Shown: positions 2 through 63,951 of the stretch, piece after piece
Position numbering within the stretch: the first letter of the stretch is position 1
Layout of the letters: every line of letters begins with the position of its first letter
DNA from: Pirellulales bacterium
GTDB lineage: Bacteria; Planctomycetota; Planctomycetia; Pirellulales; JAEUIK01
DNA length: 64,000 nucleotides
Assembly: GCA_019636335.1 (NCBI GenBank)
Contig: JAHBXR010000019.1
Coordinates: 62,001-126,000 of the forward strand
Reading direction: 5' to 3'
The notes under the pieces: generated by a model
The model's input: only the letters and a program-made list of their open reading frames with translations
Databases searched by the model: none
Told to the model about the DNA's origin: nothing
Program-made: the position numbers and the translations under genes

Positions 2-1267
2 GCGCTCGGCGATCTGTTGCAACACTGCGAATTCTTGGAAGACCGCCCCGGCCGCCTGGTGGCCATGATCGACGGTGGTTTTCCCCGCGAATTGGCCCTG
101 CTGGTCGATGCGCTCGTGACGGGCACGCTGGCCTTCCCGCTCGACGGCGCCCGCGTCAGCGAGGTGATGCGCCGCCTCGATCGCAACATGATGGTCGCGC
201 GGACACCGCAGCCCACCCAGCCGCGGACGCTGCTCGGCAAGACGCAGCGCTTCGTGACCTATCATGAAGATCTCTTCGCCATGCTCGACGATCTCGAGTT
301 GGCCGCGCACCACGACGTGACGCTGCTGCTCATCGGCGAGACGGGCACCGGCAAAACCTATCTGGCCCACCTGCTGCACGAGCTTTCGCCACGGGCCGAA
401 GATCGTTTCCTCACGGTCCCCTGTGGCGCGCTACCTCCGGATCTGATCGAGAGCGAGCTCTTCGGCCACATGAAGGGAGCCTTTACCGGCGCCGAACGAA
501 ACAAGATCGGCAAGTTCGAGGCGGCCGAGAGTGGCACGCTGCTGCTCGACGAAATCGACGTGCTGGGACCAGAGCAACAAGCGAAGCTGCTCCGCGTGAT
601 CGAGACCGGCGAGTTCGAACCGGTCGGCTCGAACGAGACGCACATCTCGCACGCCCGGGCCATCGTGGCCTCGAACGTCGATCTCGAAATCCTGATGGAG
701 AACGAGCGGTTCCGCCCCGACTTGTACTACCGTCTCAACGAGTTGAAGTTCTTCATTCCGCCGTTGCGAAAGCGCCCCAACGACATCGTCCCCTTGGCGC
801 TCAACTTCGTCGAGAGCTTCTGCGAGAAGCACGATCTGAAGATCCACTCCGTCCATCCCGATTTCCTCGAGGTGCTGCGGACCTATCATTGGCCGGGCAA
901 TATTCGCGAGTTGAAGAACCAGATGGGGCGCGCCGTGCTCTTCTGCCGCACCGGCGAACTGACGACGAAGGATCTCTCGGCCACCGTGTTGCAGGCACAA
1001 AAGACGGTCCAGGCACGCCGCGAGGCCCCCATGGCCGCCTCGAACCTGACGGCCCAGGTGGCCACGACCGAGCAGGAAATCGTCGAGCAGACGCTCCGCG
1101 CGCACGACTTCAATCGCGCCGCGACGGCCCGGGCGCTCGGCATCAGCCGCGTCACGCTCTACAACAAGATGCGCAAGTACGGCATGATCGGCGCGGCGGG
1201 CGAAAACACCGTCCGCGGCAGCGCGACCCCGATTCGCGAGTCAGGTAATCTGGCCCGTCCGCGCTAG
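2..1267 (+). CDS. Sigma-54 interaction AAA+ transcriptional activator (5' end cut by window)
   Basis: Enhancer-binding activator that would remodel sigma-54 RNA polymerase. The frame is open to the window edge; a TTG at 17 exists but the true start is probably outside, so any N-terminal sensor or receiver domain is missing. Counting from the TTG, Walker A GETGTGKT is at 107-114, the sigma-54 contact loop GAFTGA at 154-159 and Walker B LLLDEI at 175-180. A Fis-type helix-turn-helix lies near the C terminus (ARALGISRVTLYNKM). The AAA+ and HTH parts look intact. It could activate the sigma-54 sites seen at the pilin or flgB genes, but nothing here links it to a target. Confidence 0.93.
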   Translation, partial: ALGDLLQHCEFLEDRPGRLVAMIDGGFPRELALLVDALVTGTLAFPLDGARVSEVMRRLDRNMMVARTPQPTQPRTLLGKTQRFVTYHEDLFAMLDDLELAAHHDVTLLLIGETGTGKTYLAHLLHELSPRAEDRFLTVPCGALPPDLIESELFGHMKGAFTGAERNKIGKFEAAESGTLLLDEIDVLGPEQQAKLLRVIETGEFEPVGSNETHISHARAIVASNVDLEILMENERFRPDLYYRLNELKFFIPPLRKRPNDIVPLALNFVESFCEKHDLKIHSVHPDFLEVLRTYHWPGNIRELKNQMGRAVLFCRTGELTTKDLSATVLQAQKTVQARREAPMAASNLTAQVATTEQEIVEQTLRAHDFNRAATARALGISRVTLYNKMRKYGMIGAAGENTVRGSATPIRESGNLARPR

Positions 1268-1318: not shown

Positions 1319-2884
1319 CTAGTTTCTCTCGATTACTTCTCCCCCCGCCGGCGAGAGCAGGGCCTTCCATTGCTCGGCCGTGGTCGCTTGGGGCAGGAAG
1401 CGTACCGAGCCGTCGGCGATCATGACGAGGGTCCCTTCGCCGTAGTGTTGGCCGAGCCCCTTCGTCGGATCCGCCGCGTCGACCTTTAGATCGTCGGGCG
1501 CGGTCCACGGTACGGCGTGTTCGTTGTCGACTTCGAGCGACAAGATCGTGTTCGACGTGCCGTCGGTGAAATCGCGGATGGCAAGTCCCTTGCCATCGGG
1601 AAACGCGGTCTGCTTACCCACGGGAAGCACCATGCAGGTCTTGCCCACGCCGGCCTGCACACCCGGCAGGCGAAAGATGTCCGGCATGCGCTCGAGGAGC
1701 TTCTTGTTGTGCTCGCTATCCCACGGCTCGTCGAGGTGGAACTCGCCGTAGAGTTGGCCTTGGTCGAGATAGGGCAGCAGGTGTACGCGCCAACTCAACA
1801 AGGGCTTGCCCTCGGTGTTGGTGCTGGCCACGTCGGGGAAGCGGCTCTTCCCGTTGGCGTCCTTCACCGCCGAGTGATAGTTGTGCATGGCAATCGCAAC
1901 CTGCTTGAATTGATTCATCGCGGCGGCGCGATCGGCCTTGGTGGCCACGGACTTGACCGCGGGCGCGAGCGCGCTGGCAAGCTGGGCGCCATCGACCTGG
2001 AAATGTACCTGATCGCCGCGAGATTCCGGCTTCAAGGTAGCTGCCAAGGGAAGCAGCAGACCGGCTAGTCCTTCGGGCGATGCAACATCGACGTTGGCCA
2101 TGGACTGTTGTAGGTCTTCTGCCAGACGTTTTGTCTCGGCGGCGGCTTCCGTCGATGCGGTTTGCAGCACGATGTGCAGCGACTTCTCTGGATCGATCCC
2201 CACAGCTCCCCATTCCACTCGCTGCAGGAATTCGCGCAACTTGGCTTCCCCGAAGGGAGCGGGGAGATCTGGAGTCACTTCGCGCAACACACGCCGCTGA
2301 TCGGCCGAGGGGACGATGGCGAACGCGCTCGGTGCATCGGCGACCGCGGCGAATGCTTCTTCGAGCGAGACGCGCCCCAATTCCGCGGCCGGTGTCTCGC
2401 TTTCCAGCCTCGCGGCGGCCGCCGCGACTTGGCGCTTGGGACCGGCAATCAGCAAGCCGTCGACAACTTTGCGGTCCCACTTGTCGGTGAGTCTACTGTT
2501 CGCGGGAAAGGCCTTGAGCGCGGCCGCGGGGTTCGTGGAATCGCTCAAGGGGACTGCCCACAAGGCAGACAATTCCGTCGAGAGTGGCACCGAGTAGATG
2601 AGGTAAGCGATGGGGCCCGCCGCGTCGCGTATGCGTTCGGCGAGTTTGGCTGCTTGCTCGGCATCTTGCACGGTGGCTGCCAGGTCGGGCTGCGCTTCGA
2701 CGACTTGCAGAATGGAAAGCGGTGAGGCGCTTTTCAGATCGAGTCGTGCCACGGCAATCGCTTGTTCGTCGAGCAATCGCTGAATCGATTCGTAAGAAGC
2801 GACGTCGTCGGCTCGGAGCATTGCCGGCAGGCAATACACGAGAAGCACGGCGCCGAGCGAGACGCGGGTCCTGTGGGCTCGCAT
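1319..2884 (-). CDS. Secreted DUF1559-family protein
   Basis: 521 residues with an N-terminal signal peptide (about 1-26, ending around ARADD), so exported. The C-terminal third has DUF1559 hallmarks: an MNQFKQVAIAMHNYH segment, then SWRVHLLPYLDQ, a TDGTSNTIL motif and a closing IADGSVRFLP motif. Unlike most members it lacks an N-terminal prepilin helix; instead it carries a long alpha/beta-looking N-terminal region. An AAGGAA ribosome site precedes the ATG. It is the last gene of a four-gene minus-strand run headed by an ECF sigma factor, 42 nt from the gene before it. The molecular function of the family is unknown. Confidence 0.85.
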   Translation of the reverse strand: MRAHRTRVSLGAVLLVYCLPAMLRADDVASYESIQRLLDEQAIAVARLDLKSASPLSILQVVEAQPDLAATVQDAEQAAKLAERIRDAAGPIAYLIYSVPLSTELSALWAVPLSDSTNPAAALKAFPANSRLTDKWDRKVVDGLLIAGPKRQVAAAAARLESETPAAELGRVSLEEAFAAVADAPSAFAIVPSADQRRVLREVTPDLPAPFGEAKLREFLQRVEWGAVGIDPEKSLHIVLQTASTEAAAETKRLAEDLQQSMANVDVASPEGLAGLLLPLAATLKPESRGDQVHFQVDGAQLASALAPAVKSVATKADRAAAMNQFKQVAIAMHNYHSAVKDANGKSRFPDVASTNTEGKPLLSWRVHLLPYLDQGQLYGEFHLDEPWDSEHNKKLLERMPDIFRLPGVQAGVGKTCMVLPVGKQTAFPDGKGLAIRDFTDGTSNTILSLEVDNEHAVPWTAPDDLKVDAADPTKGLGQHYGEGTLVMIADGSVRFLPQATTAEQWKALLSPAGGEVIERN

Positions 2885-45034: not shown

Positions 45035-46894
45035 TTAAGCCGCGGCGGCGCGCACGAATTGCTCGTACAGCTCGGCGTACACGCCCCCGCGACGCACCAA
45101 TTGGTCGTGTGTCCCTCGTTCGACAATCTGCCCGTGGTCGATCACGAGCACAAGATCGGCGTGACGGATGGTACTCAGCCGGTGGGCGACGACAAAGCTC
45201 GTGCGGCCGGCGAGCAGTCGCGTGAGGGCCTGCTGCAAGCGCAGCTCGGTGAGGGTATCGACGGAGCTGGTCGCTTCATCGAGGATCAAGATCCGCGGAT
45301 CGGCCAGCATGGCCCGGGCAAAGCACACGAGTTGCCGCTGGCCGAGAGACAGGCCCGCGCCACGTTCGCCCACTTCGGTGCGCAGGCCGCCCGGCAGCGA
45401 CTCGAGCATGTCGAGGCATTCGAGCCGTCGTACGGCCGCGATCACTTCGTCGTCGGTGGCGTCGGGGCGCCCCAGGCGAATGTTGTCGAGCACGGTGCCC
45501 GAGAAGAGGAACGTCTGTTGTTGCACGATGCCGAGCTGACGGCGCAGCGAGGGGGTAGAGACCTGTCGAATGTCGTGGCCGTCGATGCGCAGCGAGCCCT
45601 CACCGGGCAGATAGAACTTGGCGATCAGGCTCGAGATGGTCGACTTGCCGCTGCCCGTGTGGCCGACGAGCGCGATCGTCTGCCCCGGCTCGGCGGTGAA
45701 GGTAATGTCGTCGAGCACCGGTCGCCCCGGTTCATAGGCGAAGCCGACCTGCTCGAACTCGACGCGTCCGGTGAGCGTGCCCAAAGCGAGGGCGTCGTCC
45801 GGATCCTGCCAGTCGGGGCGCAGGTCGAGCAGGTGGAAGACACGTTCGGCCCCGGCCATGGCGGTCAGCGCCTGGTTGTATTGATTGCCCAGCATCTGCA
45901 ACGGCGAGAAAAACTGATTCGTCAGAAAGAAGAACTGAATCAGATCGCCGATCGGCATGCCCCCCGGCTCGAGCACGCGATAGCCGCCGAGCAGGAGCAG
46001 AATGGCGATGAAGAACTGATTGTTTAATTCCAGCAAGGGAAGCAGAATGCCGGCCTGCCGTGCCGCCTCGAGGTTGTAGTCGGCATGGCTGACGGCGAGA
46101 TCCTGAAACAGATCTGCATTGACCCGCTCGCGCGCGAAGCCCTGCGTCACGCGGATGCCATTCACCGATTCGGCCAGCGTGGCCGTCAAGCGGCTAAAAC
46201 TTTCCTGCACGTCGCGATAGGCGCGGCTCAATTGCTGGCGGAAGCAGGCATTCAGGTACCACAGCACGGGACCCATGGCCGCGACGACACAAAACAGCAC
46301 CCAGTCGGTAGAGAGCATGAATGCGGCCGCGACCGCCATCTGCCCGACGCCGACGATGCCCACGAAAAGCACGTCCTGGATGCCGACGCGCACAGCTTCG
46401 GCATCGGAGGTGATGCGGCTGATGACGCGACCGAGCTTCGTGCGATGGTAGAAGCTCATCGGCATGCGCTGCAGGTGCTCGAAGATCTCGCGGCGAAGGT
46501 CGTGGACGACCGATTCGCCCAGTTCGAGAGCCAGTCGCTGCCGGAAATGGAACGTGGCTTGCGTGAAGGTAGCGAGGGCCAAATAGGCGACGGCGCCCCA
46601 GATGGCGCCGCTCGCCGATCGACCGGCGATCGGTCCGTTGATCACCGCGCCGATCAGCCAGGCCAGGCACGGCAACTGGATCGAGCGCATCATGACCAGC
46701 ACGATCAACAGATTGCGCTTGGCGGCGTACGGCTTCGTGTAGGAAAGAATTCGTTTGATGATCGCCAGATCGAGCGGACGCATGACGGCGTCTTCGTCCG
46801 TCTCGCCGCGCAAGCGCGTAATGCTCGCGGCGGGGGGCTGCGGTTTGCCCGGTCGGCGGGGCGAGGGACGACGCGGAGTGGGAACCGTGCTCAT
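45035..46894 (-). CDS. ABC exporter half-transporter with canonical Walker B, degenerate signature
   Basis: About 619 residues from the ATG at 46892-46894, which overlaps the upstream stop by 4 nt (ATGA). A Pro-rich cytoplasmic start of about 45 residues is followed by a six-helix type IV exporter domain and an ATPase domain. Walker A is GHTGSGKST and Walker B is LILDEATSSVD with the catalytic Glu, but the signature reads LSLGQRQ instead of LSGGQ. This complements its partner: the pair would form one canonical and one degenerate ATP site. The substrate could be a lipid, peptide or drug. Confidence 0.93.
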   Translation of the reverse strand: MSTVPTPRRPSPRRPGKPQPPAASITRLRGETDEDAVMRPLDLAIIKRILSYTKPYAAKRNLLIVLVMMRSIQLPCLAWLIGAVINGPIAGRSASGAIWGAVAYLALATFTQATFHFRQRLALELGESVVHDLRREIFEHLQRMPMSFYHRTKLGRVISRITSDAEAVRVGIQDVLFVGIVGVGQMAVAAAFMLSTDWVLFCVVAAMGPVLWYLNACFRQQLSRAYRDVQESFSRLTATLAESVNGIRVTQGFARERVNADLFQDLAVSHADYNLEAARQAGILLPLLELNNQFFIAILLLLGGYRVLEPGGMPIGDLIQFFFLTNQFFSPLQMLGNQYNQALTAMAGAERVFHLLDLRPDWQDPDDALALGTLTGRVEFEQVGFAYEPGRPVLDDITFTAEPGQTIALVGHTGSGKSTISSLIAKFYLPGEGSLRIDGHDIRQVSTPSLRRQLGIVQQQTFLFSGTVLDNIRLGRPDATDDEVIAAVRRLECLDMLESLPGGLRTEVGERGAGLSLGQRQLVCFARAMLADPRILILDEATSSVDTLTELRLQQALTRLLAGRTSFVVAHRLSTIRHADLVLVIDHGQIVERGTHDQLVRRGGVYAELYEQFVRAAAA

Positions 46895-54003: not shown

Positions 54004-54872
54004 ATGACCGAACTCAGAATCCATCGAGAAGATCCCCCCCCGCTCGAGCGTCTGACGCCCGAGCGCCGCGCCGATCTCGAGGCGGTATTGGCGGCCTGGC
54101 AGGATGCCACGAGCCGCCTGCAGCAGACGCACGAGTCGCTGCGCGGTGAGGTTCGTCGTTTGACGGACGAGTTGGAAAAGAAAAACCGCGAGTTGGCCCG
54201 CAAGAATCGGCTGGCCGATCTAGGGCAGATTTCGACGCACGTGGCCCACGAGGTGCGCAACAGCCTCGTGCCGGTCACGCTTTACCTGAGCTTGTTGCGC
54301 CGTCGCCTCGCACAGGATTCCGCTAGCCTCGAGGTACTCGACAAAATGGACAGCAGCTTCTCCGACGTGCGTAGCACGGTGAACGACCTGTTGCACTTTG
54401 CCGCCGATCGCGATCCCGTGCGGCGGCAGCTCCGCATCCGCGATCTGGTCGAGGATGTGCGCATCTCGCTTGCGCCGCAACTCATGGCACAAGGAATTCG
54501 CTTTGCCATCGACGTGCCGCCCGAGCAGTTCGTGTTGGTGGATCGCGACATGCTGCGTCGCGCGGTGTTGAATCTGGCCATGAATGCTCTCGACGTCATG
54601 CCCGACGGGGGGGAGATCGTGGTGACCTCGTTTATCGGCGCTCGCGGCTTCGAACTTGAGATCGCCGACAGCGGGCCGGGGCTCGATGAGGAAACGACGC
54701 GGCGCGCCTTCGAGCCCTTCTACACCACCAAGAGCAGCGGAACCGGACTGGGATTGGCCATCGTCTCGCGCATCGCCGAGTTGCACGGCGGCGACGTCAC
54801 GGTGATCAACTGTCCGGAGGGAGGCGCTGCCTTCACCCTTCGCATTCCGCATCGCGCCATGGAGGCCGCCGC

Positions 54873-54876
<4 letters not shown>
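54004..54876 (+). CDS. Histidine kinase of a FleS/FlrB-type flagellar two-component system
   Basis: 290 residues from the ATG at 54004 with AGGAG upstream. An N-terminal coiled coil (HESLRGEVRRLTDELEKKNR) precedes the HisKA box LGQISTHVAHEVRNSLVPV with the phosphorylated His. The ATPase domain has an N box (LNLAMNALDVMPDGG), a G1 box (DSGPGLDEE) and a G2 box (SSGTGLGLAIV). No membrane helix is present, as in cytosolic FleS/FlrB kinases. The stop overlaps the response-regulator start by 4 nt (ATGA). Confidence 0.92.
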
Positions 54877-56306
<1,430 letters not shown>

Positions 56307-56525
56307 ACAGAACGAAACAAAGAGCCGTGCTAGCGGTGCTGGCGGCAGAACTCGCCACCACGAGCGGCGAAAATTGCCGATCGCGGCGCAGCACCGACAA
56401 GACATCGAACGCATGACAGCAAGCACGGACCGCCGTGCGGACGACCGCAACCTGCCATCGCACAACAGTTTCGCAAAATCGTACTCGTTGAGGATGCCTC
56501 GAACCACATGCACCACTGTCCGCTC

Positions 56526-56541
56526 CGGCATTCGATTTGCA
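56526..56541 (+). promoter_or_regulatory. Sigma-54 promoter candidate of the flgB operon
   Basis: CGGCATTCGATTTGCA has GG (-24) and GC (-12) at the required 12-nt spacing and a complete TTTGCA -12 element; the -24 half matches GGCA. Transcription would start near 56553, about 45 nt before the flgB ATG. A second, weaker alignment (TTGGC from 56551) overlaps it downstream. The rest of the 291-nt gap shows no gene. Confidence 0.6.
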
Positions 56542-56597
56542 ATGAGTGACTTGGCGTAAGCCGCGCGAGACAGGTCCGCGGCAGGAGGTTAGGAAAC

Positions 56598-57005
56598 ATG
56601 GCCCAATCAATGTTCGACGCGACGGCAATCCCCGTCACCGAGATGGCGGTTGTCTTCACCCAGACGCGACAGCAGTTGCTGGCGAGCAATCTGGCGAACT
56701 TCGACACGCCCGGTTACAAGACTCGCGACCTGTCTCCCGTGCGGTTTCAAAAGCACCTGCGCGAGGCGATTCGCGAGCGCGACACGGGCGGCGCCCCGAT
56801 CACGCTCGCTTCGCTCCGCGGCGGACGAGCGGCGCGCGACGGCAATCACTCGATGCTGACGTTCCTGCACCACGACAAGACGGACGTGATTGTGGAAGAA
56901 TCGGTCGCCGAGATGGCCAAGAACCAAATGCTGCACAACACGGCCCTGGCGATCATGAACAACCAGTTCCGCTTGCTGCAAGCAGCGATTTCCGAACGAG
57001 CCTGA
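56598..57005 (+). CDS. flgB: Flagellar basal-body rod protein FlgB
   Basis: 135 residues with GGAGG upstream. It has the N-terminal rod signature QQLLASNLANFDTPGYKTRDL (NLAN...PGY) and the C-terminal helix MAKNQMLHNTALAIMNNQFR, both typical of FlgB. It forms the proximal rod and is exported by the flagellar type III apparatus without a signal peptide. It is the first structural gene of the operon. Confidence 0.95.
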   Translation: MAQSMFDATAIPVTEMAVVFTQTRQQLLASNLANFDTPGYKTRDLSPVRFQKHLREAIRERDTGGAPITLASLRGGRAARDGNHSMLTFLHHDKTDVIVEESVAEMAKNQMLHNTALAIMNNQFRLLQAAISERA

Positions 57006-57072: not shown

Positions 57073-57495
57073 ATGCTCGCTTCCTTCGATATCAGCACGA
57101 GCGCACTGGTCGCACAGCGCCAGCGGCTGGATGCTATCTCGAGCAACATGGCCAACCTGTTCACGACCCGCAACGAGGCGGGAGAGAAGGTGCCTTTTCA
57201 GCCACGCTACGTGGTGTTCGAGTCGGAACCGGTGCCGGGCGGATCGGCCGCGGCTCGAGGCGTACGCGTCAGTTCGGTCGAGATCGATCCGATCGAGCCG
57301 CGCTACAAGTACGATCCCGGTCATCCCGACGCCATCACCGAGGGAGACAAAAAAGGGTACGTCGCGCTGCCCAACATCGACATGACCGAGCAGTTCGTCG
57401 ATGCGATCGAGGCGACCCGTTCGTACGAAGCAAACGTCGGTGCGATCGAGATCAGCAAGGATCTCGTCAATCGCACGCTGAATATCCTGGCCTAA
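57073..57495 (+). CDS. flgC: Flagellar basal-body rod protein FlgC
   Basis: 140 residues. The N terminus SALVAQRQRLDAISSNMANL and the C terminus EQFVDAIEATRSYEANVGAI match FlgC rod proteins, with a short central domain containing YKYDPGHPDA and GYVALPNIDM, also typical. 67 nt follow flgB. Confidence 0.96.
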   Translation: MLASFDISTSALVAQRQRLDAISSNMANLFTTRNEAGEKVPFQPRYVVFESEPVPGGSAAARGVRVSSVEIDPIEPRYKYDPGHPDAITEGDKKGYVALPNIDMTEQFVDAIEATRSYEANVGAIEISKDLVNRTLNILA

Positions 57496-57545: not shown

Positions 57546-57860
57546 ATGGCCCACGCGATCAACTCTCACCTTCCTTCGCAGATAGCGCTGCCGCCGCAGC
57601 CGGGTGCGCTGGCGTCGCCGGGCGCCGAGGCGGCGGGAGGTCCCTCGTTCAAGAACGTGCTGCTCGATTCGATCGAGCAAGTGAACACGATGCAGCAGGA
57701 AGCGGACCGCGCGGTCGAGTCGCTCATGACCGGTGGAGACGCCACGGCGGCCGAGGTGCTCACCGCGGTGCAAAAGGCCGATATGGCCTTCCGCATGGCG
57801 ATGCAGATTCGCACGAAGCTGCTGGCGGCTTATGAAGAGGTGAAGAATATCCGCGTCTAG
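57546..57860 (+). CDS. fliE: Flagellar hook-basal body protein FliE
   Basis: 104 residues. The C-terminal half has the FliE signature: FKNVLLDSIEQVNTMQQEA, AAEVLTAVQKADMAFRMAMQ and RTKLLAAYEEVKNIRV. FliE joins the MS ring to the rod. It is 50 nt after flgC, in the standard flgB-flgC-fliE order. Confidence 0.95.
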   Translation: MAHAINSHLPSQIALPPQPGALASPGAEAAGGPSFKNVLLDSIEQVNTMQQEADRAVESLMTGGDATAAEVLTAVQKADMAFRMAMQIRTKLLAAYEEVKNIRV

Positions 57861-58020: not shown

Positions 58021-59664
58021 ATGGATTTTCTGAACAAGGCCCTCGCGCAGGCGAACGAGCTGTTCCGCTCGATGACTCCCGGTGCGCGGATCACGGCGGG
58101 CCTGTTGCTGGTCCTGGTGGTCGTGAGCCTGGCTTATTTGTTTCGCGGCAATGTGGCGGGCCCGGATGTCTTCCTCATGAATGGGCATCCCTTTCCCAGC
58201 ACGGAGCTGCCCAAGGCGATCGCCGCGCTCGGCCAGGCTGGACTGAGCGACTTTGAAGTCGAAAACAACATGATCCGTATCCCGCGCGGCAAGCAAGCGG
58301 CGTACATCGCGGCGCTGGCCGACGGCAATGCCCTGCCCACGGGCTTCGGCGAATTCCTGCTGCGGACCATCAAGGACACCGGTCCCTTCACGACGTCGGA
58401 AGAGCGCGACGAGTTGATGAAAGTGGCCAAGCAACAGGTGCTGGCCGACACGATTCACAAGATGTCGGGCATCGAAGCGGCCACGGTCCTGTTCGATACG
58501 CAGAATCGCCGCGGTTTGCGTGGCGATGCGGTGGCCACGGCCATGGTCAGCGTGCAGCCGACCGGCTCGCTGCCTCTCGACGAAGAACGCGTGCGATCGA
58601 TTCGCAACCTGGTGGCGGGAGCCATCGCCGGCCTGCTGCCCCGACAGGTGACCGTCGTGGACCGCAGCACCGGCAAGAGTTGGTCGGGAGATTCCAGCGA
58701 CGGTGGATCGGCCACCGACGATGCCTACTTTACCCGCATGCGAGCCTATCAGGACCAGTACAAGCGAGAAATCCTCGACATGCTCTCGCTGGTGCGCGGC
58801 GCCACGGTGAGCGTGAACGTCGAACTCGACCCTCACCGCATCCGACGCGAGTCGGACGTGAAGGTCGATCCGAAGGCGGTCGCTACCTCGATCCGAGAGA
58901 ACACCTCCTCGTCGCTCACCGAGTCGGCGGGGCCGGCCGGGCGCCCGGGCTTCGCGGCGCAAGGGCCCAATCGGCCGGCCGGGTTGGCGGGCGGAGCGGC
59001 CACACCGACCACGCGCTCGCAAGATGAAACCTCGGATACAGAAACACAAAATGTCGTTTCACACACCAGTGGCCAAACCGAGATCGTCGGCCTGACGCCC
59101 CGCCGCGTCACCGTGTCGATCGGTATTCCGAGCCGCTATCTCGAGGAGTTGTGGCGCCGCCAGAATCCCACGCCCGCCGGCGAAGAGCCCAAGCAACCTA
59201 CCGACGCCGACCTGGCCACGATCTTCCAGGAAGAGTCCGTGCGCATTCGCAGCGCGGTGGCGAACGTCGTGCCGCAAGACAACACGTTGCCGCTCGAGCA
59301 GATGGTGGCGGTGAATCGCTTTATCTCGCTGACCGATCCGCCGCTCGCGGTCCCCGGCTTTTCGGATCAGGCCTTGGCCTGGCTCTCGAACTACTGGACG
59401 ACGATCGGCACGTTTGGCCTGGCTGGGTTCAGCTTGTTGATGCTCCGCTCGATGGTCCGCTCGGCGCCGGCGGCCGAGCCGATGCCCGCCGAGGTGAATC
59501 TGCCGGACGAAACGAACGACGAGGCGCCCAAGCCCGCTCCGCCGATCATCAAGCGCCGTCTCGAGTCGGGCCCCTCGCTGCAGGATGAACTGGGAGAGAT
59601 GGTGCGTGAAAACCCCGACGCCGCGGCGAACATCCTTCGCTCCTGGATTGGCAACGTCAACTAG
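58021..59664 (+). CDS. fliF: Flagellar MS-ring protein FliF
   Basis: 547 residues with the two membrane helices of FliF, one N-terminal (ITAGLLLVLVVVSLAYLF, about 22-40) and one C-terminal (TIGTFGLAGFSLLML). The periplasmic YscJ/FliF ring-building domains lie between, with ALGQAGLSDFEVENNMIRIP and the GAIAGLLPRQVTVVD-type segment. The C-terminal tail PSLQDELGEMVRENPDAAAN should bind FliG. A disordered Gly/Pro/Ala-rich linker (about 290-330) interrupts the periplasmic part. Confidence 0.96.
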   Translation: MDFLNKALAQANELFRSMTPGARITAGLLLVLVVVSLAYLFRGNVAGPDVFLMNGHPFPSTELPKAIAALGQAGLSDFEVENNMIRIPRGKQAAYIAALADGNALPTGFGEFLLRTIKDTGPFTTSEERDELMKVAKQQVLADTIHKMSGIEAATVLFDTQNRRGLRGDAVATAMVSVQPTGSLPLDEERVRSIRNLVAGAIAGLLPRQVTVVDRSTGKSWSGDSSDGGSATDDAYFTRMRAYQDQYKREILDMLSLVRGATVSVNVELDPHRIRRESDVKVDPKAVATSIRENTSSSLTESAGPAGRPGFAAQGPNRPAGLAGGAATPTTRSQDETSDTETQNVVSHTSGQTEIVGLTPRRVTVSIGIPSRYLEELWRRQNPTPAGEEPKQPTDADLATIFQEESVRIRSAVANVVPQDNTLPLEQMVAVNRFISLTDPPLAVPGFSDQALAWLSNYWTTIGTFGLAGFSLLMLRSMVRSAPAAEPMPAEVNLPDETNDEAPKPAPPIIKRRLESGPSLQDELGEMVRENPDAAANILRSWIGNVN

Positions 59665-59676
59665 TCGAGCTATCCC

Positions 59677-60723
59677 ATGAGTCAGTCAATGAACCACCCT
59701 CCGCTGCGCAAGGCCGCCATACTGGTCGCCAGTCTCGACCGCGAGACGGCCGATCGCCTGGTCGCGTCGATGCCTGCGGAAGAGGCCGATCGCCTCTACG
59801 CGGAGATGGCGCGCCTGGGCGAGATCGACCCCGTCGAACAACGCACGATCATCGACGAGTTCTTCCGCGGCTCGCCCCCGTCCGCCGTCGGAGGCGATAC
59901 GCTCGAGTTGAGCTCGACCGTCGAACAGCAGCTTGCCGCGAACACCGTCATGCGGATTGACGAAGCGGCGGCGATGCCCCTGCCGAATTTCGAGCCGCTG
60001 CGGTCGACGGACGCGGCGACCCTCGCGTCGATCCTGGCCGACGAGCGACCGCAAATCGTAGCGCTCGTGATGTCGCAGTTGCCGCCGCTGCAGGCGGCCA
60101 CGGTGCTGCATCGCCTGGCCCCGGCCCTGCAAGCCGAGGTCATGCGCCGCCTGTCGGACCTTGACGAGCCAGATGCCCTCACGCTCTACGAAGTCGAACG
60201 CGTCCTTTCGGGACGGCTCGATCACGCGGTGCGGGCCAACAAGCGCCGAGCTACTGGATTGGCCGCGCTCGAAGGAATTCTGCAGGCCGCCGAGGGAGAC
60301 GCCTCGCGCCATCTGCTCGACAACCTCGCGCAACACGATCGTCAGCTTGCCGCACGCTTGCGTCGCGACGAGCCGCATGAGGTCGTCGCCTTACCGTTGG
60401 CCGCGCACGTCTCGTCGATGACGTACGCCGAGTTCATGCGTCTCGACGATCGCTCGCTGACGGTGGTCTTTCAATCGGCCGGCCGCGAGGTCGTGCTGCT
60501 CGCGCTGGCCGGTTCGACGCCTCAGTTCGTGGCCCGGGTTACGACCCTCTTCGGCGCCACCAGGCCGCGACAGCTCGATCAGGCGATCGAATCGCTCGGT
60601 CCGCTGCTGCTGAGCGATCTCGAGGCCGCGCAGGACGAGCTCGCGCGCCTGGCGAGCGAGTTGCTCGACGAGGGCGTGATCGAAGGCGTCTCGCCCCGCG
60701 CGACGCTGAGCATGGCCGCCTGA
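59677..60723 (+). CDS. fliG: Flagellar motor switch protein FliG
   Basis: 348 residues. It has an N-terminal domain (RKAAILVASLDRETADRLVA) that contacts FliF, a middle domain with ILADERPQIVALVMSQLPP (the EHPQ motif here is ERPQ), and a C-terminal torque domain with a charged helix (DDRSLTVVFQSAGREVVLLA). It starts 12 nt after fliF. The family length is kept, but overall conservation is lower than usual; function as a rotor protein is expected. Confidence 0.93.
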   Translation: MSQSMNHPPLRKAAILVASLDRETADRLVASMPAEEADRLYAEMARLGEIDPVEQRTIIDEFFRGSPPSAVGGDTLELSSTVEQQLAANTVMRIDEAAAMPLPNFEPLRSTDAATLASILADERPQIVALVMSQLPPLQAATVLHRLAPALQAEVMRRLSDLDEPDALTLYEVERVLSGRLDHAVRANKRRATGLAALEGILQAAEGDASRHLLDNLAQHDRQLAARLRRDEPHEVVALPLAAHVSSMTYAEFMRLDDRSLTVVFQSAGREVVLLALAGSTPQFVARVTTLFGATRPRQLDQAIESLGPLLLSDLEAAQDELARLASELLDEGVIEGVSPRATLSMAA

Positions 60724-60766
60724 GAACCCGTTTTCATCCTACCCGCCACCCGAGCTTGCCAGTCGC

Positions 60767-61420
60767 ATGCCTGTCCTGAAGCAACACGCCGATCAGACCG
60801 TGGGAGTCCGCGGAGTCGCTTTCGACTTCGAGGATGTCAACCAGCGCGCCGGAAACTATCTCGAACAGGTACGCGGTGAGGCGGCCAAGATCGTGCGCAA
60901 GGCACAGGAAGAAGCAGACGCCATTCGCCAGCAGGCCGAGCAAGAGGGGCGCAGGGCGGGCATGGCCGCCATCGAGCAGATTGCCACCGATAAACTCGGT
61001 CAGCAGATGACCACGCTGCTGCCGGCGCTGCGCGAGGCAGTCAACGAAATCCAGCGCTCGCGGGTCGCCTTTCTGGCGAACTGGGAGCAGAGCGCCGTGC
61101 ATCTGGCCACCGCGATTGCGGCCCGCGTCGTCCGCCGCGAGTTGAAGCACCAACCCGAGATCACGCTCTCGCTCGTGCGCGAGGCCCTGGAGCTTGCCGC
61201 GGGCAGCCCCGACATTCGCATCCTGATGAATCCCCAAGACCACGAGGCGCTGGCCCCGCAAGTCAAGCGGCTGGTGGCCGAAATGGACCGCTTGGGAACG
61301 GTCAAGACGATCGCCGACGCGCGGATTTCGCGAGGTGGCTGCCGCGTCGAGACGCACTTCGGCTCGATCGATCAGCAGTTCGAGTCCCAGCTCGCGCGGA
61401 TTGAAGAAGAACTCACCTGA
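60767..61420 (+). CDS. fliH: Flagellar assembly protein FliH
   Basis: 217 residues. A long helical region (EQVRGEAAKIVRKAQEEADA) with the FliH-type heptads and Ala/Gly spacing (RQQAEQEGRRAGMAAIEQ) is followed by a C-terminal domain (VHLATAIAARVVRRELKHQP) that binds FliI. It regulates the export ATPase. The following fliI gene starts 8 nt later. Confidence 0.9.
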   Translation: MPVLKQHADQTVGVRGVAFDFEDVNQRAGNYLEQVRGEAAKIVRKAQEEADAIRQQAEQEGRRAGMAAIEQIATDKLGQQMTTLLPALREAVNEIQRSRVAFLANWEQSAVHLATAIAARVVRRELKHQPEITLSLVREALELAAGSPDIRILMNPQDHEALAPQVKRLVAEMDRLGTVKTIADARISRGGCRVETHFGSIDQQFESQLARIEEELT

Positions 61421-61427
61421 GATCGCC

Positions 61428-62789
61428 ATGCTCGCTATCGAATCACAACTCGATCAGATCATGCCGACCGCGCTCGCAGGCAGCGTGTCGCGGATCGTCG
61501 GCATGACCGCCGCCGTGGCGGGTCTGCCGGCGCCGATCGGAGCGCTCGTCGAGATCGACCGCGAGACGGGCAACCCACTCACGGCCGAAGTGATCGGCTT
61601 TCGCGAAGACCTCACGATCATTTATCCCTGGGATGATATTTCGGGCGTGCGTCGCGGGAACCGCGTGCGCATGGTCCGCACCACCCCCTGGCTGCACGTG
61701 GGAGATCAACTCCTGGGACGCGTCGTCGATGCGCAAGGACGTTGCATCGATGGCGGACCCCAGCCCGTGCTGGCCCATCGTGCCCCGCTCGATCGTACGC
61801 CCCCCGCTCCGATGCGTCGCCAGCGCATCGCCACGCCGTTGACCACGGGCGTTCGCTCGCTCGATGGCATGCTCACCTGCGGCAAGGGGCAGCGCATGGG
61901 CATCTTTGCCGGCTCCGGCGTGGGCAAAAGCAGTACCCTCGGCATGATGGCCCGCTACACCTCGGCCGACGTCAATGTCATCGGTCTGATCGGCGAACGC
62001 GGCCGCGAAGTGCGCGAGTTCATCGAACGCGATCTGGGCCCAACAGGCATGGCACGTAGCGTCGTGGTCGTCGCCACTAGCGACGCCCCCGCGGTGCTAC
62101 GCGTGCGTGCGGCTCGTACCGCCACGACCATTGCCGAATACTTCCGCGATCAGAAACGCGACGTGCTCCTGATGCTCGATTCGCTGACTCGATTCGCGCA
62201 AGCACAACGCGAGATCGGCCTGGCCGCGGGCGAACCGCCGACGACACGCGGCTTCCCCCCGTCGGTGTTTGCCATGCTGCCCAAGCTGGTCGAACGGGCT
62301 GGCTACGACGCCGAGGGCAGTATCACGGGCTTTTACTCGGTGCTCGTCGAGGCCGACGATCCGAACGAACCGATCAGCGATGCGGTGCGCGGCTTGCTCG
62401 ACGGCCATACCTGGCTGTCGCGCAAAATCGCCGCCCGCGGCCATTATCCGGCCGTCGACGTGCTCGAAAGCATCAGCCGACTGATGACCGAAGTGGCCGA
62501 CCGAGAGCACCAAGCCGCCGCGTCGATCGTCCGCGAATTGCTCTCTGCCTACCGCGAGCACGCCGACCTGATCTCGATCGGCGCCTACCGCCGCGGCAGC
62601 AACCCGACGGTCGATCTGGCGATCGCCATGGAAGGAGAGATCAATGCCTTCCTGCGGCAGGCGATGGACGAGCCGAGCAACATGGCCGACACCCGCACCG
62701 CCCTGCAGAACCTGATTCGCAGCGCGGCCCAAAAGCGACAAGCCCTATCCACCCCCGCACAAAACCCTGGCGGTCTTCGCACCGGTTGA
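61428..62789 (+). CDS. fliI: Flagellum-specific export ATPase FliI
   Basis: 453 residues from the ATG at 61428. It is an F1-beta-like ATPase with Walker A in MGIFAGSGVGKSST, the GERGREVREFIE segment, Walker B LLMLDSLTRFAQAQREIGLA and the PTTRGFPPSVF loop typical of FliI/YscN. It energises type III export together with FliH and FliJ. Length and motifs are standard. Confidence 0.97.
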   Translation: MLAIESQLDQIMPTALAGSVSRIVGMTAAVAGLPAPIGALVEIDRETGNPLTAEVIGFREDLTIIYPWDDISGVRRGNRVRMVRTTPWLHVGDQLLGRVVDAQGRCIDGGPQPVLAHRAPLDRTPPAPMRRQRIATPLTTGVRSLDGMLTCGKGQRMGIFAGSGVGKSSTLGMMARYTSADVNVIGLIGERGREVREFIERDLGPTGMARSVVVVATSDAPAVLRVRAARTATTIAEYFRDQKRDVLLMLDSLTRFAQAQREIGLAAGEPPTTRGFPPSVFAMLPKLVERAGYDAEGSITGFYSVLVEADDPNEPISDAVRGLLDGHTWLSRKIAARGHYPAVDVLESISRLMTEVADREHQAAASIVRELLSAYREHADLISIGAYRRGSNPTVDLAIAMEGEINAFLRQAMDEPSNMADTRTALQNLIRSAAQKRQALSTPAQNPGGLRTG

Positions 62790-62797
62790 ACTGAGTT

Positions 62798-63259
62798 ATG
62801 GCAGCCAACACGTTCCGCTTTCGACTGACGACCCTGCTCAAGCTCCGCGAGGCGGCGCGCGACGAGCGTCGCAACCGCCTGGCCGAGGCGCATCGCGCCG
62901 AGGATATCGTGGCAAACCGCATTCGCGAGATCGACACCGAATTGGCGGAACAACGCCGCGTGCCTGTCACGGCCACGATGCCTGGCAAACGCATCCAACT
63001 CGACTCGCTCCTCGAAGCCGAACGCTATGAGTTGTTGTTGCGCGCCGAGCGCCAGAGCGTCGAACGCCAGCGCGGCGAGATCGTCGAGGAAATCGAACGT
63101 CGCCGCCTGGCGCTGGTCGCCGCCGATCGCGAGGTGCGGATTCTCGAACGCCTGCGCGAGAATCAGGCCGAACAGTTTGCGGCCGAGATGAATCGCCGCG
63201 ATATCCAGCAGCTCGACGAAGTGGCCGCGCGGCGGTACTGGCGGGAGGATGACGAATGA
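62798..63259 (+). CDS. fliJ: Flagellar FliJ protein
   Basis: 153 residues, an antiparallel coiled coil from end to end (FRLTTLLKLREAARDERRNR, a stretch shared with FliJ/YscO proteins, then ERQSVERQRGEIVEEIERRR). It is the central stalk that links the FliI hexamer to the export gate. The stop overlaps the next start by 4 nt (ATGA). Confidence 0.9.
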   Translation: MAANTFRFRLTTLLKLREAARDERRNRLAEAHRAEDIVANRIREIDTELAEQRRVPVTATMPGKRIQLDSLLEAERYELLLRAERQSVERQRGEIVEEIERRRLALVAADREVRILERLRENQAEQFAAEMNRRDIQQLDEVAARRYWREDDE

Positions 63260-63951
63260 TCGGTCTCCTGCTGCGCGCGCTCGTCGCCCTGTTCGTCTAT
63301 AGCTGCGTCGCCACGGTGTTGTCGCTGGCCATCATCCTGGGCTACCTGATGGCTACGCAACAGCTCGACGAAGGCAAGATTTCGCAGATTTCCGCGGTCT
63401 TGCAGGGCATCGACCTTGCCAAGCTGGCCGCGCCTCCGAGTCCCGAGGCGGTGGACGCGAGCCAGGAACAAGCCTCGTACGAGGCGGTGGTCAACGCCCG
63501 AGCCGTCAAGCTGCGCGACATCGAGCTGCGGCTCATCTCGCTGCGACAAGGCTTGGGACGACTCGACGCGGATCGCATGGCGCTGACCGCGGAGAAATCC
63601 CGCCTCGACCGAGAGCGGACTACCTTCGACGAACGCTTGGCCGAGCTACAGAATTCGGCCACGTCCGAGGGTGAGAACGATGTGCGGTCGATTCTCGAAA
63701 GCGTGAAGCCGAAACAGGCCAAGGAACTGATCTTGAAGATGGTCGACAGCGGCGAGATGCAGGCCGTGGTCAACATGCTTAGCCAGATGCCGGTGACGAA
63801 GCAGGCCAAGATCGTGGCCGAATTTCGCACGCCGGAAGAGACGGAAAAACTACAAGCCATCTTGCGGCAGATTCAGTTGGGCGAACCACTGGCCAGCCTG
63901 GTGGATGAAACACGGAATCAGTCCGCACGATCGGCGCAGGAGGCGCCATAA
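63256..63951 (+). CDS. MotE-like membrane protein with coiled coil and MgtE-N-type domain
   Basis: 231 residues. One N-terminal membrane helix (LVALFVYSCVATVLSLAIIL) is followed by a coiled coil (residues about 75-135) and a helical C-terminal domain (ILESVKPKQAKELILKMVDS, VVNMLSQMPVTKQAKIVAEF) like the MgtE N-terminal fold of MotE. MotE-type proteins act as chaperones for the stator MotC or lie in fliJ-fliK intervals. The location between fliJ and the probable fliK fits. Confidence 0.8.
   Translation: MIGLLLRALVALFVYSCVATVLSLAIILGYLMATQQLDEGKISQISAVLQGIDLAKLAAPPSPEAVDASQEQASYEAVVNARAVKLRDIELRLISLRQGLGRLDADRMALTAEKSRLDRERTTFDERLAELQNSATSEGENDVRSILESVKPKQAKELILKMVDSGEMQAVVNMLSQMPVTKQAKIVAEFRTPEETEKLQAILRQIQLGEPLASLVDETRNQSARSAQEAP

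Follow-up and report, generated by a model that had tools for sequence, protein, structure and literature searches.

The window, that is, the whole 64,000-nucleotide stretch of Pirellulales DNA analysed here, carries on its plus strand a gene for a FleS-like histidine kinase (54004..54876), a gene for a FleR-like sigma-54 activator (54873..56306) and the rod gene flgB (56598..57005), and between the last two lies a sigma-54 (-24/-12) promoter element (56526..56541, plus strand). The kinase was recognised by the Pfam domains HisKA and HATPase_c, with no sensor domain among its Pfam hits, and its gene overlaps the next one by ATGA. According to Pfam, the regulator is formed by a receiver, a Sigma54_activat AAA+ domain with the GAFTGA loop and a Fis-type HTH_8, which is the composition of an NtrC-type activator. 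Domains and overlap together confirmed the coupled kinase/NtrC-type regulator pair that an initial annotation of this DNA had placed directly before the element. Among the 59 aligned FleR orthologs, GAFTGA was found in 50, and those without it may be cut or variant; the phospho-acceptor Asp was found in 55, with gaps in the other 4.

The regulator reached none of the curated models for named flagellar activators (FlbD, 346.6 of 750 bits; FlgR, 295.5 of 750), the best curated model being AtoC (451.4 of 714), and for this reason it is filed as FleR-like only, which, judged from the sequence, is a name by position and context. The earlier label "fleSR-type" was therefore kept as a description of a kinase and a regulator by context, and given up as a name backed by a named equivalog model. 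A FleR search of the genome itself gave 56 matches (E <= 0.001), many paralogs among them, and a further sigma-54 activator domain with 39% identity to FleR is encoded in the window at 320-1189. A scan of named genomes was dominated by other NtrC-type activators, and of the 80 loci kept, only 4 had a close FleR (59-66% identity; Pirellulales, Planctomycetaceae or Pirellulaceae).

Downstream of the element, and on the same strand, flgB (Flg_bb_rod over its cut-off, TIGR01396 slightly below) is followed by the rod gene flgC (57073..57495, TIGR01395 over cut-off) and by fliE (57546..57860, PF02049 and TIGR00205 over cut-off). Then come open frames named by position and sequence reading as fliF, fliG, fliH, fliI, fliJ and a motE-like gene (58021..63951). 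The co-directional string runs for nearly 20 kb, with fliK, flgD, flgE, motAB and export genes beyond fliJ by sequence reading. Its gap between fliE and fliF measures 160 nt, and the later gaps 43 nt or less. In the 28 loci, of 47 examined, where both genes were detected, this distance ranged from 3 to 277 nt and no sigma-54 site was present in the fliE-fliF gap; a simple scan of the plus strand of this gap in the window gave no sigma-70-like site. Internal promoters could still lie within the string.

The promoter element, CGGCATTCGATTTGCA, reads C-GGCA-TTCGAT-TTGCA, which is GG-N10-GC with bases of the TGGCAY-N5-TTGCW type, a consensus that was recovered from 55 aligned sites. It is located where it had been described and with the correct spacing; the spelling GGCA-N6-TTTGCA, in which one T was counted twice, is to be replaced by GGCA-N6-TTGCA. 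The ATG of flgB (56598) begins 56 nt past the end of the element, with a Shine-Dalgarno-like GGAGG (56584..56588, plus strand) 9 nt ahead of it, and the genome also encodes RpoN. The start site of flgB is predicted near 56552, some 12 nt past the GC. A single match of this kind in isolation is weak evidence: the loose pattern matched 41 times in the window, where 29 were expected, it was not enriched genome-wide (429+394, that is 823, against 461+448, that is 909, in the reversed control), and a site with at least 8/9 core bases appeared in the shuffled fleR-flgB gap about 5% of the time. What makes the element credible is its conservation in relatives, and on these sequence grounds we consider 56526-56541 to be a real, conserved sigma-54 promoter element.

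To describe this conservation, FlgB was searched in 396 genomes of the order, 219 of which had a match, and 80 flgB upstream regions were sampled, about one per genus among the matches listed. fleR precedes flgB in 62 of these 80 regions, in addition to the window, in linkage with the kinase and the rod genes. The counts for the order refer to the 58 fleR-flgB gaps of at least 100 nt, window included, five shorter gaps (0, 4, 31, 42 and 77 nt) being excluded. Taking at least 8/9 core bases at spacing 6 as the threshold, a sigma-54 site was present in 50/58 gaps versus 2.9 by shuffling, and on the opposite strand in only 2/58. Other spacings gave 1 to 7 of 58, except spacing 4 (17/58), whose excess is attributed to the upstream palindrome described below. 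Among the loci with a fleR-flgB distance of 0 to 77 nt (L084, L096, L097, L137 and L100), the short gap holds no sigma-54 site except in L100; in such loci, transcription from the fleR promoter may continue into flgB. The search was extended to 392 genomes of the phylum, of which 137 had a FleR match at E 1e-110; outside the order, many of these matches are probably paralogs. Of 39 regions examined there (19 + 20), 27 had both genes detected and 26 offered usable gaps; the site at spacing 6 was found in 24/26, with a shuffle mean of 0.96, other spacings gave 0 to 2 of 26, and of the two gaps without the site one is 7 nt long. The check that the initial annotation had proposed, a search for the motif ahead of flgB in relatives, was thus strongly positive, and the lack of conservation that would have counted against the element is ruled out by the counts in the order and the phylum.

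Upstream of the sigma-54 site, the gaps contain a second element that had been missed earlier, the palindrome TCGGCA-N5-TGCCGA, often in tandem, which in relatives is separated from the sigma-54 site by 155 bp on average (sd 34). In the window, the candidate FleR site GCGGCGAAAATTGCCGA (upstream activating site 2; 56364..56380, no strand assigned) has 10/12 consensus bases and sits 163 bp before the GG of the sigma-54 element. A second, weaker copy in tandem, GCGGCAGAACTCGCCAC (candidate site 1; 56342..56358, likewise unstranded), has 8/12 and lies 22 bp before it, the commonest tandem spacing in relatives being 22-24 bp. Upstream activator sites of sigma-54 promoters lie in a range of about 80-200 bp, and the 163 bp of the window palindrome falls within it. 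The imperfection of the two copies counts against the explanation preferred below. The dyad CGGC-N7-GCCG was found in 41/58 gaps of the order versus 1.7 by shuffling. In the full consensus, A-TCGGCA-R-WWW-Y-TGCCGA-T, the outer A/T and the inner R/Y, which were left out of the scoring, are likewise symmetric. Palindrome and sigma-54 site occurred jointly at the right distance in 47/58 gaps versus 0.18 by shuffling (largest shuffle, 2).

Genome-wide, the loose palindrome pattern was found 6248 times and 5597 times in the control, the signal being swamped by chance matches. The helical phase between palindrome and promoter had a best period of 11.65, not 10.5, with a jitter p of about 0.001, and this result was kept out of the evidence because the period had been picked from a range. 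It was also observed that an 8-bp inverted repeat, CGGTGCTG / CAGCACCG, at 56334-56341 and 56389-56396, encloses both palindromes. The sole other pair of this kind within the window, a palindrome-like site at 46459-46475 (10/12) followed 89 bp further on by a weak sigma-54-like site at 46548-46563 (8/9), is probably due to chance.

The relation between the element pair and FleR was analysed in the flgB regions without an adjacent fleR, of which 17 were usable and an eighteenth (L083) was cut at the contig end. Two genomes, G062 and G027, have the pair before flgB where fleR was not seen adjoining; in both, a FleR ortholog is encoded on a different contig (identities of 68 and 72%). The flgB contig of G062 stops a short way off, so that adjacency of fleR and flgB is conceivable in that genome. 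The pair was absent from all of the remaining 15 regions, which belong to genomes without FleR at E 1e-110, a threshold slightly stricter than the E-value of the best family paralogs observed (6e-104). The pair therefore precedes flgB in 49/60 regions with FleR versus 0/15 without it (Fisher 3e-9, which is not an exact probability since the genomes are related). As for the 11/60 FleR-bearing gaps that fail the joint test, seven have the palindrome (five with at least 10/12, two with 9/12) next to a sigma-54 site of just 7/9, and four, 105-152 nt long, have no palindrome, three of them having a sigma-54 site.

The palindrome also changes jointly with the recognition helix of FleR, as expected for a regulator and its own site. 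Outside the order, the palindrome takes the form GCGCA-N5-TGCGC in 9/14 cases with the FleR helix RTL-G[LMV]-K, a type found in 1/58 cases with the helix of the order, RTL-[S/T/A]x-K; conversely, the CGGCA type was found in 1/14 with the former helix versus 47/58 with the latter. Eleven FleR proteins of the phylum with other helices have no single site type. Considering that both classes coincide with the split between the order and the remainder of the phylum, this covariation represents one or few events.

In the 6.4 Mb of the genome itself, the exact palindrome consensus occurs twice. One of these palindromes, on contig 31, is placed 191 bp before a 9/9 sigma-54 site, TGGCACGCACCTTGC, ahead of flgF-flgG-flgA-flgH, where flgF was over its model cut-off and flgG, flgA and flgH were named by sequence reading; the gene upstream of this pair is not fleR. 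The region before flgF was then compared in 26 FleR-bearing genomes, this one included. A sigma-54 site was present in 25/26 versus 1.85 by shuffling, and both elements in 18/26 versus 0.15, the pair missing in 8/26. Palindrome spacing before flgF is unspecific by itself (spacer 5 in 20/26, spacer 7 in 21/26 and spacer 12 in 17), so that the argument for flgF rests on the joint test. In four flgF regions of FleR-less genomes, taken as a control, one had an 8/9 sigma-54 site and none had the pair. Of 20 places with an exact palindrome in relatives and in the own genome, most were without a sigma-54 site nearby. Only the flgF palindrome of the own genome had a 9/9 site at the expected distance; two others had 8/9 sites at 80 and 177 bp. 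Most exact palindromes elsewhere are taken as chance or unrelated. The own-genome pieces L230, L231, L232 and L233 were examined around the flagellin genes and ahead of flgE, and no second pair was found.

Taking all this into account, 56526-56541 is very probably an enhancer-dependent sigma-54 promoter of the flgB-flgC-fliE basal-body operon, driven by FleR via the palindromes. The FleS-like kinase would phosphorylate the FleR-like regulator, which as dimers would bind one or two of the palindromes (56342-56358, 56364-56380) about 160 bp upstream. The bound FleR would loop to the RNA polymerase-sigma-54 at 56526-56541 and open the promoter by ATP hydrolysis, transcription presumably beginning there, and the same regulator would serve the second promoter, of flgF-flgG-flgA-flgH, on the other contig. 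Building of the flagellum would then be set off in this bacterium by the regulator encoded next to flgB. The initial annotation had proposed a local circuit in which the FleR-like protein activates the flgB operon. The link with FleR gained computational support from the conserved palindrome, from its co-occurrence with FleR even where the two are not adjacent and from the joint change of site and helix, while the restriction to a local circuit had to be dropped because the same element pair precedes flgF on another contig.

A real sigma-54 site at flgB might instead be served by another sigma-54 activator, and the many paralogs of FleR in the genome make this conceivable. We consider it improbable, since both elements are missing in all 15 FleR-less flagellated genomes despite 36 to 121 first-look paralog candidates in them, are present in the two genomes where fleR was not seen adjoining flgB, and vary in sequence together with the FleR helix. 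It is slightly less probable still that the palindromes form a terminator or an RNA hairpin at the end of the fleSR message, the sigma-54 site alone being of importance for flgB. They do follow fleR, at 0 to 253 nt from its stop codon in relatives, and the stretch of the window with the two palindromes folds better than its own shuffles (z -2.78). Nevertheless, none of 60 palindromes has at least 6 T in the following 10 nt, a scan of the gap gave no terminator-like site, and the distance to the sigma-54 site (sd 34) is steadier than that to the fleR stop (sd 63), so that a terminator was not supported. The half-site letters are near invariant and not compensated, although this is partly due to the selection of sites by score, and the pair also stands before flgF, where the gene upstream in the own genome is another than fleR. 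That the match is fortuitous and flgB has a sigma-28 or sigma-70 promoter is hardly credible, for although the pattern is unenriched genome-wide and a FliA/WhiG-type sigma factor is encoded, the element is conserved across the phylum at one spacing only, a plus-strand scan before flgB found no sigma-70-like site, and a FliA-type factor also occurs in genomes without flagella and hence is no pointer to flgB. As a discriminator this factor was discarded, with matches in 42/42 genomes tested (41 over cut-off), 11 of them without FlgF.

The promoter driven by FleR, as preferred here, resembles known systems. In Pseudomonas aeruginosa, passages of PMC7064773 and PMC8335546 describe the FleSR kinase/regulator pair and sigma-54 as needed for flgB transcription and report FleR also at flgFGHIJKL; as here, a kinase and a sigma-54 response regulator are tied to flgB. 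There, however, the master regulator FleQ stands above, and the MS-ring, rotor and export genes belong to an earlier class, whereas in the window these genes follow flgB in one string. The flgB and flgF genes of Vibrio cholerae have two rod promoters that depend on the FlrBC two-component system and sigma-54, as stated in a part of PMC7064773. This parallels the separate flgB and flgF sigma-54 promoters predicted here, in a different phylum and with another operon layout. In the same part of PMC7064773, FlgSR of Campylobacter and Helicobacter works together with sigma-54 at the rod and hook genes, again a flagellar kinase-regulator pair using sigma-54. FlgR of H. pylori, according to an extract of PMC3930126, has no DNA-binding domain and needs no DNA binding for activation, unlike the FleR-like protein, which has HTH_8 and a conserved candidate site.

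A FleSR/FlrBC-type circuit is thus already known, and the variation lies in the MS-ring, rotor and export genes placed after flgB in one string. For FleSR (Pseudomonas), FlrBC (Vibrio) and FlgSR (Campylobacter), PMC7064773 states in the portion cited that activity needs MS ring, rotor and export gate proteins. If one sigma-54 promoter feeds the whole string, the kinase cannot await a prebuilt MS ring, rotor and export gate; with one transcript covering it, MS ring and rotor would be under FleR and the checkpoint known elsewhere could not come first. It is possible, though we hold it only tentatively and lean to the contrary, that FleSR tops the flagellar cascade in such planctomycetes rather than occupying a second tier. 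In that case the kinase would respond to a different cue, such as the swimming-cell stage, or there would be positive feedback from a low basal level. The analysis suggests that a sigma-54 two-component switch was joined to one large string of basal-body genes, and not to a split one.

The text of PMC7064773 does not mention planctomycetes. A PLoS One 2025 survey (PMC12316311), in its searched text, predicts sigma-54 motility promoters and basal-body enrichment in Planctomycetia and cites Studholme and Dixon 2004 on Pirellula, with no mention of FleR, FlgR or flgB in that text. In the literature searched, no description of the promoter with its palindrome was found, and Studholme and Dixon 2004 may contain part of it. 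The switching on of the swimming-stage flagellum in planctomycetes is little described in the literature found. The present analysis offers a testable regulator, likely binding sites, two target promoters, one of them conserved phylum-wide, and an example of a regulator and its site changing together.

Other observations concern the FleR-less genomes. Just before flgB, L132 (about 940-1260, minus strand), L133 (944-1366, minus strand) and L141 (about 2126-2545, plus strand) have a stretch or small open frame that resembles the rear part of the FleS-like kinase with 30-35% identity; a HATPase_c match was obtained only in L133, below cut-off. FleS may thus survive in such genomes as an ATPase-only remnant. 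Those flagellated members of the order whose FlgB is divergent and which have no FleR carry an additional FliA-like sigma factor (G336:C261:26078, G215:C1:3033025, G364:C11:7834, G350:C87:21684 and G147:C762:48551). In G336, G215 and G364 this factor shares its contig with flgF/flgG-like genes and is encoded near them. This suggests a second, sigma-28-run flagellar type within the same order.
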